A program made the translations under genes and the position numbers. A stretch of 64,000 bases of DNA from Hyphomonas sp. CY54-11-8. Its GTDB lineage: Bacteria > Pseudomonadota > Alphaproteobacteria > Caulobacterales > Hyphomonadaceae. Positions 6,073 to 44,422 of this stretch are shown in pieces; the first letter of the stretch is position 1; each line of letters starts with the position of its first letter. The stretch is from assembly GCF_000682735.1 (NCBI RefSeq), contig NZ_AWFD01000038.1, positions 1 to 64,000 on the forward strand. Direction: 5' to 3'. The notes under the pieces were generated by a model. That model was not told the DNA's origin. It did not search any database and saw only the letters and a program-made list of their open reading frames with translations.

Positions 6073-6564
6073 ATGAGGGCCCATATGGAAGATGACGCCA
6101 CGCCAACTGCCGAACCGTGGCAGGTTATGGGAGAAAACCTGGACATCATGACCGGTGGCATCCCGTGGGGACGCCGGATGAGCTTCCGCGTGACGAAGCT
6201 GGAAAAGGGCCGCGTCTGGGGCGTGCAGCCCTGGAAGGAGCGCCTTGTTGGCGACCCGGACACCGGCGTGATCCATGGCGGCGTGCTGACGTCTTTCCTC
6301 GACAACCTGTCCGGCATGGCCGCAAGTTCCTCGCTCGAAAAAGCCCGCTTCGTCTCCACTCTGGACCTGCGCATCGACTATATGCGCCCGGCAGAGCCGC
6401 ACCGGGAAATCCTTGGCGAGGCCGAGTGCTATCACATCACCCGCAATGTCTGCTTCACCCATGCCTGGGCCTATCATGAGAGCCGGGACAAGGTGATCGC
6501 CACCGCTGCAGGCGCCTTTGCCATCAACAAGCCCCGCTCGGTCGAGTCGCTGAGGGAGTTCTAA
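6073..6564 (+). CDS. PaaI-like hot-dog thioesterase (first of tandem pair)
   Basis: A 163-residue single hot-dog-fold protein. The central helix motif IHGGVLTSFLDNLSGMAA carries the HGG and Asp positions typical of PaaI/YdiI-type acyl-CoA thioesterases, followed by the STLDLRIDYMRPA strand that pairs with it. Expected reaction: hydrolysis of an acyl-CoA to the free acid and CoA in the cytoplasm. The stop overlaps the start of a second thioesterase gene (TAATG), so the two are translated together and could form a heteromer. Two in-frame ATGs exist at the 5' end (6073 and 6085); the first is used here but the second is equally plausible. Confidence 0.87.
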   Translation: MRAHMEDDATPTAEPWQVMGENLDIMTGGIPWGRRMSFRVTKLEKGRVWGVQPWKERLVGDPDTGVIHGGVLTSFLDNLSGMAASSSLEKARFVSTLDLRIDYMRPAEPHREILGEAECYHITRNVCFTHAWAYHESRDKVIATAAGAFAINKPRSVESLREF

Positions 6565-6995
6565 TGTCTGACGATCTTCTCCCCACCCGCGGCGAACAGG
6601 TTCAGGCCTTCCTCGGCCGCACGCCCTTCGCGCAGGAAATCGGCATGCGCTGCGAAGTCATGGGCGACGAGATGACCGCCATCATGCCGTTCCAGCAGAA
6701 ACTGATCGGCAATTTCACAATCCAGGCTCTGCATGGAGGCGCCATTGCCGCCTTCCTGGAACTGACCGCCATGGCGCAGGTCTACCTCGTGACTGAGCAT
6801 CTGGAGCGCCCGCCGCGGCCGATCAACATTACGATCGATTATCTCCGCCAGGGCCACGCCAAGGACACGTTTGCCCGCGCCACCATCACCAAGATGGGCC
6901 GGCGCATGTGCTCGGTGCGAGCCGAGGCCTGGCAGGACGAGCGGTCCAAACCGGTCACCAGCCTGCTGGCGCACTTCAAGGTAAGCGGCGACTGA
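6564..6995 (+). CDS. PaaI-like hot-dog thioesterase (second of tandem pair)
   Basis: A 143-residue hot-dog protein paralogous in fold to its upstream neighbour but clearly diverged. The core helix reads LHGGAIAAFLELTAMAQ, where the acidic residue after the HGG is Glu and not Asp, and the following strand is PRPINITIDYLRQG. Glu at that site is common in PaaI-family enzymes, so it may be active, and the two subunits may have different substrates. ATG overlaps the previous stop codon by one base (TAATG at 6562-6566), a strong sign of coupled translation. A 41-bp element (7025-7065) lies 29 bases past its stop. Confidence 0.87.
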   Translation: MSDDLLPTRGEQVQAFLGRTPFAQEIGMRCEVMGDEMTAIMPFQQKLIGNFTIQALHGGAIAAFLELTAMAQVYLVTEHLERPPRPINITIDYLRQGHAKDTFARATITKMGRRMCSVRAEAWQDERSKPVTSLLAHFKVSGD

Positions 6996-7024
6996 GGTGA
7001 GTTGGATAAGGCCGCCTTCAGGCA

Positions 7025-7065
7025 ATGAACAATCCAATGAATACACCATGTACTCACCATGAAGA
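7025..7065 (+). repeat. 41-bp intergenic element, copy A
   Basis: This stretch matches 43492-43532 at 35 of 41 positions: identical first 15 bases (ATGAACAATCCAATG), one change, nine identical bases, a five-change core of six, then ACCATGAAGA. Both copies are on the + strand just downstream of a stop codon. Here the element sits in the loop of an 11-bp inverted repeat (7010-7020 against 7060-7070, one mismatch). Each copy can be read as a 31-36 codon frame starting MNNPM, but without a good Shine-Dalgarno and with third positions no freer than others, so an RNA or DNA element is more likely than a gene. Confidence 0.6.
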
Positions 7066-7194
7066 CGGCCCGGATTTGCGCCGCTCAAAGCCGGGCATGA
7101 GTCCTCTATTGCCTATCCTGTGGCGGGCCCCCTAATCTCCGGCATCGGGACAAGGGGAAATCGTGACTCACCCATTTGCACTTCAAGGCATGCG

Positions 7195-42994: not shown

Positions 42995-43483
42995 ATGAAA
43001 GGCGACAAGAAGGTCATCGAATACCTGAACAAGGCGCTGAAGAACGAGCTCACCGCCATCAACCAGTATTTCCTGCACTCGCGGATGCTGCACGACTGGG
43101 GCGTTTCGAAGCTCGGCGACAAGGAATACAAGGAATCGATCGAGGAAATGGAGCATGCTGACTGGCTGATCCAGCGCGTCCTGTTCCTTGGTGGCCTGCC
43201 GAATCTGCAGGATCTCGGCAAGCTGCACATCGGCGAGAACGTCCAGGAAATCCTGGAATGCGACCTGAAACTCGAGAACGCGGCGATCCCGCTGCTGCGC
43301 GAGGCCATGGCCTACAGCGAGTCGGTTCAGGACTATGTCAGCCGCGACCTGTTCGGGAAAATCCTCCACAATGAGGAAGAGCATGTCGACTATATCGAGA
43401 CCCAGTTCGAACTGATCGAGCGGATCGGGATCGAGCGCTACACCATGCTCCAGTCCGAGGCGAACGCGTCGCCAGAAGGCTGA
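42995..43483 (+). CDS. bfr: bacterioferritin
   Basis: A 162-residue haem-containing ferritin that forms 24-subunit iron-storage shells. All known residues are at canonical positions: ferroxidase ligands Glu18, Glu51, His54, Glu94, Glu127 and His130, and the haem-ligating Met52 at the two-fold interface. Closely follows E. coli Bfr in length and numbering. AGGAG precedes the ATG. It follows bfd on the same strand. Directly after its stop lies copy B of the 41-bp element and then an intrinsic terminator. Confidence 0.95.
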   Translation: MKGDKKVIEYLNKALKNELTAINQYFLHSRMLHDWGVSKLGDKEYKESIEEMEHADWLIQRVLFLGGLPNLQDLGKLHIGENVQEILECDLKLENAAIPLLREAMAYSESVQDYVSRDLFGKILHNEEEHVDYIETQFELIERIGIERYTMLQSEANASPEG

Positions 43484-43491
43484 CCGGCCAC

Positions 43492-43532
43492 ATGAACAAT
43501 CCAATGTATACACCATCAATAGACCATGAAGA
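43492..43532 (+). repeat. 41-bp intergenic element, copy B
   Basis: Matches 7025-7065 at 35 of 41 positions and is likewise on the + strand a few bases after a stop codon (bfr stop at 43483). Here its last two bases begin the stem of the bfr terminator. The low-similarity core (43517-43522) sits between two conserved blocks. No function known. Confidence 0.6.
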
Positions 43533-43556
43533 GGCGCCTCCCGGGGCGCCTCTTTT
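43531..43556 (+). terminator. intrinsic terminator after bfr
   Basis: GAGGCGCC (43531-43538), loop TCCCGG, GGCGCCTC (43545-43552), then TTTT. A textbook intrinsic terminator for the bfd-bfr unit, ending at the convergent DUF4105 gene. Confidence 0.85.
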
Positions 43557-44422
43557 CATTCCGCGCAGGCGACCAGTGCGGCATTGAACGCCGCCTGAGG
43601 CAGTGACGCATTCTCCCGCACGCAGGCATCGACCCTCGCCTTTGCGTGCACCTCCTCGAAACGGCCCTCACCTGAGATACGCTTCCGCAGGTACAGCGCC
43701 CGATCGGCGTCGCCTGTCAGGATGAAAGCCGGGTGCCAGGGAATGTCCGCTGCCTTGGCGAGTTCGTTCGTGCAGTTGGACGTCAGCGTGTTGTAGAAAC
43801 GCGGGCGCTGTTCGATGGAGACCGTCTTCTCCAGCAGCGCGGTAAGATAGGCTTCCGCTTCCGCCTGGCTGAGCGCCAGCGGATACATGTAGAGCTCCCG
43901 GTCCATCATCACCGCGCGGCGGGTCATCAAATCCCTCGGGCTTGCCCAGTAGTACATGAGCTCGAACTTGTTGAAGGTGCCGCGAAACGCCGAATAGGTT
44001 TCGCGCGTTTCCTTGCGCGCCTCGATGGTGAGGCCGACAAGATCCCCTTCCCCGAATTCGAACATGACGAAAGTATGCGCCATGACGGTGAGGCCCGGAT
44101 GCGGCTCCATCACGAACCAGACACGGCGCACATCCGAAATGCGATGCGGCGGCACCGCGCTCCACACCATTTCGTCCGAATCATTTTCTGTATACGTCCA
44201 GTCACCATAAGGCGCGATGGAGAAAGTGCCGTCCTGAAGTTCCACATGCGGCAGGCGCGAGAGATGCGGATACCAGTTCCGGTCATGCCGCGGCTGCTTG
44301 GTGACAACGGCCAGCAGGAAGACGCCGAACGCCGCAAGCGCTGCCACAAGGAACGGAGAGATCCAGCGCACCGGCGCTAATAGCCTGCCGGTTTGAAACT
44401 GTCTGCCTGCGCCATCGCCCAT
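43556..44422 (-). CDS. DUF4105 (Lnb N-terminal periplasmic) domain membrane protein
   Basis: A 288-residue protein with one N-terminal transmembrane helix (ISPFLVAALAAFGVFLLAVV) and a periplasmic DUF4105-type domain. The segment RPRFYNTLTSNCTNELAK contains the Cys of the papain-like NlpC/P60-superfamily fold, and HTFVMFEFG would supply the His region; a peptidase or amidase activity is possible. The assigned ATG overlaps the upstream glutamate-synthase-like gene by 46 bases; a GTG at 44371, five bases after that gene's stop, keeps the whole membrane helix and is a good alternative start. Confidence 0.8.
   Translation of the reverse strand: MGDGAGRQFQTGRLLAPVRWISPFLVAALAAFGVFLLAVVTKQPRHDRNWYPHLSRLPHVELQDGTFSIAPYGDWTYTENDSDEMVWSAVPPHRISDVRRVWFVMEPHPGLTVMAHTFVMFEFGEGDLVGLTIEARKETRETYSAFRGTFNKFELMYYWASPRDLMTRRAVMMDRELYMYPLALSQAEAEAYLTALLEKTVSIEQRPRFYNTLTSNCTNELAKAADIPWHPAFILTGDADRALYLRKRISGEGRFEEVHAKARVDACVRENASLPQAAFNAALVACAE

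Follow-up and report, generated by a model that had tools for sequence, protein, structure and literature searches.

Pho boxes and OmpR-PhoB-family operators are built from 11-nt direct repeat units (PMC9414882). Repeats of the same length occur in parC of plasmid R1, where a 22-bp fragment corresponds to two iterons, and thus to 11 bp each, and two iterons are enough for binding by ParR (PMC4949242). Rho loading (rut) sites use YC-N9-13 spacing (PMC9160355). The window analyzed here, a 64,000-nt stretch of the genome of Hyphomonas sp. CY54-11-8, contains two intergenic arrays of 11-bp units, and related arrays recur, mostly at gene ends, in a subclade of Hyphomonas.

Like OmpR/PhoB operators, the arrays consist of tandem 11-nt head-to-tail units with a better-conserved core and a less-conserved part, on which protein subunits would lie on one helix face. 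Unlike these operators, they begin with a special 12-nt unit and are located mainly at gene 3' ends rather than in promoters; most arrays are downstream of gene ends, and ~10 lie between convergent genes. Moreover, no OmpR-family domain has changed between species that spell the repeat differently (hereafter, species of different dialect). All nine OmpR-family DNA-binding domains of the sister species G041 are identical or nearly identical to their orthologs in the window's species (G000), and this family was rejected as the dialect reader because its recognition helices are unchanged. Tandem 11-bp A/C-rich iterons are also shared with parC, whose iterons are read by one protein, whereas in the window's genome ~22 arrays of four units each are scattered over chromosomal gene ends. 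Among the array neighbors examined by ORF calls and translation, no parM/parR operon was seen.

Two Arrays in the Window

The sequence-only reading of the window had reported a duplicated 41-bp intergenic sequence, and this was confirmed: the two copies (7025–7065 and 43492–43532, both on the + strand) are identical at 35 of 41 positions, and the shuffled window did not yield even one such match. Its description of two conserved blocks around a variable center was incomplete, as both copies are in fact composed of four tandem units of 12, 11, 11, and 11 bp (7022–7066 and 43489–43533). Copy 1 follows the stop codon of a 4HBT thioesterase gene (6564–6995, + strand; identified by Pfam and orthologs) and copy 2 that of the bacterioferritin gene bfr (42995–43483, + strand; Ferritin PF00210 and orthologs), as had been stated. 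Array 1 comprises the 12-nt unit GCAATGAACAAT (7022–7033) and the units CCAATGAATAC, ACCATGTACTC, and ACCATGAAGAC (7034–7066), and array 2 the 12-nt unit CACATGAACAAT (43489–43500) and the units CCAATGTATAC, ACCATCAATAG, and ACCATGAAGAG (43501–43533), all on the + strand, with the register of the first units taken from the array alignment. The corresponding profile E-values are 4e-6 in the whole genome and 4e-8, respectively, but these are not independent because the profile was trained on 38 arrays that included both copies. The second copy abuts an intrinsic terminator, again as described earlier; this terminator (ATGAAGAGGCGCC...GGCGCCTCTTTTCAT, 43526–43559, + strand) overlaps the last unit of array 2. 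The Pfam check covered five window proteins, and other gene names were mostly read by eye from translations.

A 9-nt box, GTTGGATAA (7001–7009, + strand), lies 12 nt upstream of array 1 and is an optional accessory motif. It occurs once in the window (0.09 expected); approximately half of the arrays have it exactly 12 nt upstream, and at a few loci it is in reversed orientation; nearly all of its occurrences in the examined loci adjoin an array. The GC-rich flanks of copy 1 are able to pair around the array, which had been described as sitting in a hairpin loop. This is not a feature of the family: the mean flank helix was 4.0 bp compared with 4.26 bp in shuffled flanks, and hairpin bracketing of the arrays was rejected because matched flanks pair no better than shuffled ones.

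A Family of Arrays in a Hyphomonas Subclade

A search for the literal sequence, with up to three mismatches allowed in 31 fixed bases, returned only these two copies from the 3.9-Mb genome and no match in 100 relatives; the sequence collections searched likewise lacked the literal sequence. Only two copies without conservation in relatives had been proposed as a sign of coincidence or of a recent copy event. This applies to the literal sequence, which on its own would look like a coincidence or a private duplication, whereas the actual motif, a family of arrays, does not fit the description. In sister species, the orthologs of bfr and of the thioesterase gene have differently spelled sequences at their 3' ends that resolve into tandem 11-nt units, with orthologous thioesterase arrays in nine of these species. 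Each family member is a 46-bp array of one 12-bp and three 11-bp units with the consensus ACCnTxTAyRS. Alignment of 44 non-redundant arrays gave a sharp 46-bp profile with the 12-nt first unit RCMMTSAMRAAC and little conservation outside.

A two-unit pattern, which was taken from sister species at the bfr and thioesterase sites and whose evidence includes the window's genome, matched 10–35 times in each of nine subclade genomes and 6 times in the window's own genome, whereas its reversed control matched 0 or 1 times per subclade genome. The profile R1, built by sequence only from orthologous sites, identified 22 arrays each in the window's genome and in G018, and 25 each in G041 and G036. Across the genus, 10 of 42 genomes (the nine sister species and that of the window) contained 15–25 arrays and the other 32 contained none, and of the other 95 genomes searched in the taxonomic family only one gave a match, single and weak. 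A 25-bp core pattern was found only in Hyphomonas among 84,980 species genomes, with H. jannaschiana VP2 and a Hyphomonas MAG as named matches; this exact-pattern scan misses most arrays and is specific rather than sensitive. No Rfam family above the gathering score covered an array at nine loci, plasmid BLAST returned no match, and such repeats in Hyphomonas were not found described in the literature. A match to DUF3800-VII RNA (59.9 bits, L108:3066–3153) was located ~500 bp from one array. The orthologous positions in the sister species show that this dispersed intergenic family descends vertically at fixed loci within the subclade.

Placement Relative to Genes

The arrays of the sister species occupy the same orthologous intergenic sites. 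Gene context was assigned by hand from a simple ORF caller at 26 distinct loci, and at ~20 of these the array is downstream of the end of a gene or tRNA and on its sense strand (two-sided p ~0.009). Approximately 10 arrays lie in convergent pairs (including those of bfr, the thioesterase, AGCS/gloA, parE, and a tRNA-Asn), and another ~10 between co-directional genes (infC/rpmI, serB/exbD, upstream of thrS, and others). At least five are located between divergent genes (ompA/dnaK, rluB/MFS, hisF/GGDEF, rnd/thioesterase, and adhC), and two or three are antisense (ahcY, DUF983/SOUL, and gyrB in G000). An intrinsic terminator directly follows many arrays, and array composition is A/C-rich and G-poor (C 0.28, G 0.14). 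The bias toward 3' ends lends partial support to the earlier suggestion of a 3'-UTR regulatory element, but the divergent and antisense arrays do not fit it, and the former are unexplained by a gene-end function. There was no replication-strand bias in G041, in which 13 of 25 arrays are on one strand relative to replication.

Species Dialects at Position 6

The CC dinucleotide is near-invariant in each unit, as are T5, A8, R10, and S11; position 11 carries either C or G, each of them common, in 366 of 375 units. Position 6, on the other hand, is species-specific. At the 21 loci common to G000 and G041, the four position-6 columns contain G in 20, 18, 16, and 14 arrays of G000, but C in 19, 19, 17, and 15 arrays of G041, where the overall counts at this position are C62, A11, and T1. 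Other genomes have dialects of their own: mostly G in G027, A in G004, A or G in G032, C in G006, and A at both positions 6 and 9 in G031. In the variable columns, arrays at different loci of one genome resemble each other more closely (0.575 and 0.593) than do the G000 and G041 arrays of a shared locus (0.426). Among the 13 loci in clean register, orthologs of these two genomes agree at position 6 in only 3.8% of units, whereas at positions 9 and 11 they agree in 74%, compared with 54% and 46% for non-orthologs (permutation p ~0.001). The position-6 base was thus substituted in place in almost every unit and locus, and the arrays were not simply replaced; within a genome, all units change positions 6 and 9 in step.

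Some arrays depart from the dialect of their genome. The ahcY array, which lies upstream of this gene and antisense to it (L304, L305, L306), retains the C spelling in G027 and G032, in which the other arrays have A or G. Horizontal import of arrays with a foreign dialect was rejected because these C-dialect arrays are the orthologous ahcY-upstream arrays. In G041 (L322) and G036 (L011), a ~850-bp gene insertion separates bfr from its array, and this displaced array retains an A/G spelling unlike that of the other arrays in the genome; it is possibly a fossil of an older dialect. Restriction avoidance and mutation bias were rejected as causes of the dialect, since the flanking DNA of G041 shows no avoidance of CCATG (35.6 vs. 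40.2 per 10 kb). Because the single-base switch is genome-wide and in place, it argues for a trans-acting reader that recognizes every unit alike, and the dialect would therefore imply a putative reader shared by all units.

The Putative Reader and Alternative Explanations

The account that we tentatively favor, and to which we give close to but not quite an even chance, is a DNA-binding protein that would sit as a homo-oligomer on phased 11-bp sites and perhaps mark gene ends. One sequence-specific nucleic-acid-binding protein would supply identical subunits, one for each unit; since the repeat period nearly equals a helical turn, about four of them would line up on the same side of the DNA duplex. 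A change in the specificity of this protein would drive the genome-wide base switch. Of the possibilities raised by the sequence-only reading, a binding site fits best, as the bases switch in step in every unit, although DNA seems a likelier target than the RNA that had been proposed, because C or G at position 11 suits the reading of base pairs in a duplex; such degeneracy is natural for minor-groove reading of a base pair. From the placement of the arrays, we infer that binding serves gene-end marking or insulation. Most tentatively, bound arrays may work at 3' ends and in convergent gene pairs, where transcription has to be stopped or insulated, in the manner of a roadblock or boundary for instance; as a secondary role, they may serve as operators at a few divergent or 5'-proximal sites. 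No reader was found among the candidate proteins compared (Rho and the OmpR family).

The full version of this account is rather improbable: a fast-evolving putative DNA-binding protein that sits tetramer-like on the phased 11-bp gene-end arrays, stops or insulates transcription, and co-switches specificity with its ~20 sites between species. If true, it would represent a bacterial counterpart of protein-roadblock terminators.

The ~20 orthologous four-unit sites that switched the same base in step between sister species provide an unusually clean natural record of a putative specificity change in a factor and its sites, and the putative reader may have a role at gene ends or in chromosome organization that no annotation predicts. 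The arrays themselves are ready-made bait for such a reader.

Reading could also take place in the transcript, where a homo-oligomeric RNA-binding protein, or an abundant small RNA, on four 11-nt 3'-UTR units would control 3'-end formation or RNA stability; we consider this possible but not likely. That arrays favor the sense strand downstream of genes and tRNAs fits an RNA-level reader equally well, the A/C-rich, G-poor composition and the position of many arrays directly before intrinsic terminators are consistent with it, and a homo-oligomer on RNA would likewise yield concerted dialects. However, it does not account for the arrays between divergent genes or those in antisense orientation, a single-stranded reader would hardly be expected to accept C and G alike at position 11, and neither a conserved structure nor an Rfam match supports it. 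Pairing with a guide RNA would predict C/T at position 6, whereas G041 shows C/A.

That the arrays are degenerate, functionless selfish repeats (REP- or minisatellite-like) that spread and are homogenized by gene conversion or slippage is unlikely. They resemble such repeats in being short, intergenic, multi-copy, and tandem, with a patchy distribution over the genus, and they share with REP/BIME elements a dispersed location that is often between convergent genes. In contrast to REP/BIME elements, they are direct rather than foldable palindromic repeats, have a fixed register, and descend vertically in place; unit number is also mostly fixed, no terminal repeats were seen, and the flanks have no shared structure. 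Furthermore, orthologs keep locus-specific bases at positions 9–11 while position 6 switches, a locus-specific memory that wholesale conversion would erase; gene conversion was therefore rejected. The same features weigh against the degenerate mobile repeat suggested earlier.

Still less likely, the arrays are idealized rut sites at gene ends, with the Rho ring contacting a pyrimidine-C about every 11 nt. Like rut sites, they are C-rich and G-poor, with more C than G on the strand, YC dimers 9–13 nt apart, and a near-invariant CC about every 11 nt, and they lie in the sense orientation at 3' ends; differently spelled CC arrays with a period of ~11 also occur in other Hyphomonas clades, at two of the same loci. 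Rho needs only YC in otherwise unconstrained sequence, yet the arrays contain the additional near-invariant bases T5, A8, R10, and S11 and a genome-specific position 6, and they are present between divergent genes too. Rho was rejected as the dialect reader because its sequence hardly varies between dialects and does not follow them: residue 23 is the sole difference between the proteins of the G-dialect genome G000 and the C-dialect genome G006, and at the two sites where G000 and G041 differ, G032 and G004 match G041 despite a different dialect.

A chromosome-organizing site (centromere- or nucleoid-occlusion-like) instead of a transcript-end mark is the least plausible explanation: only 2 of the 25 G041 arrays fall in the 42% of the chromosome around the skew-inferred terminus and the circular distribution is uneven (Rayleigh p = 0.003 in G036, 0.036 in G018, and 0.017 in G041), but because these three genomes have most loci in common they do not provide independent tests, the pattern may only reflect that conserved genes are located near the origin, and the gene-end sense bias would be left unexplained.

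Related Arrays in Other Clades and Viral Contigs

In the neighboring clade of G008, G012, and G016, the thioesterase 3' end and the convergent gap of gloA and AGCS, both of them array loci in the window's clade as well, contain period-11 arrays spelled CCnAAACAGnC (L045, L046, L049, L139, L143, L148, L167); the array in the gloA/AGCS gap is on the opposite strand from that of the window's clade. G040 (L135, L137, L145) contains intergenic arrays of 10–11-nt units, TCCCnAAAnG, two of which end in ACACGGTTTGAyACG. These arrays tentatively suggest a genus-wide system with a fast-changing spelling. Another repeat, CCGAAGTCATCCCGAAAACTGCCCGAAA or close variants of it, has several copies in G007, G009, G029, and G030 and is also found in G001 and G022 (seen in L147, L150, L151, L155, and L159); it is possibly part of a mobile element.

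Intergenic tandem arrays of 11-bp units, such as ACCTTATAAAG, ACCGTTTAGAC, and TGTTCCACGAA, were also observed in viral contigs (L329, L330, L332, L333, L335, L343). A link between these and the Hyphomonas motif was not established, because a degenerate three-unit pattern matched 11 stretches in the viral contigs and its reversed control also matched 6. In L335, an ORF at 2424–2711 that is ribbon-helix-helix-like by eye lies ~220 bp from the viral array.
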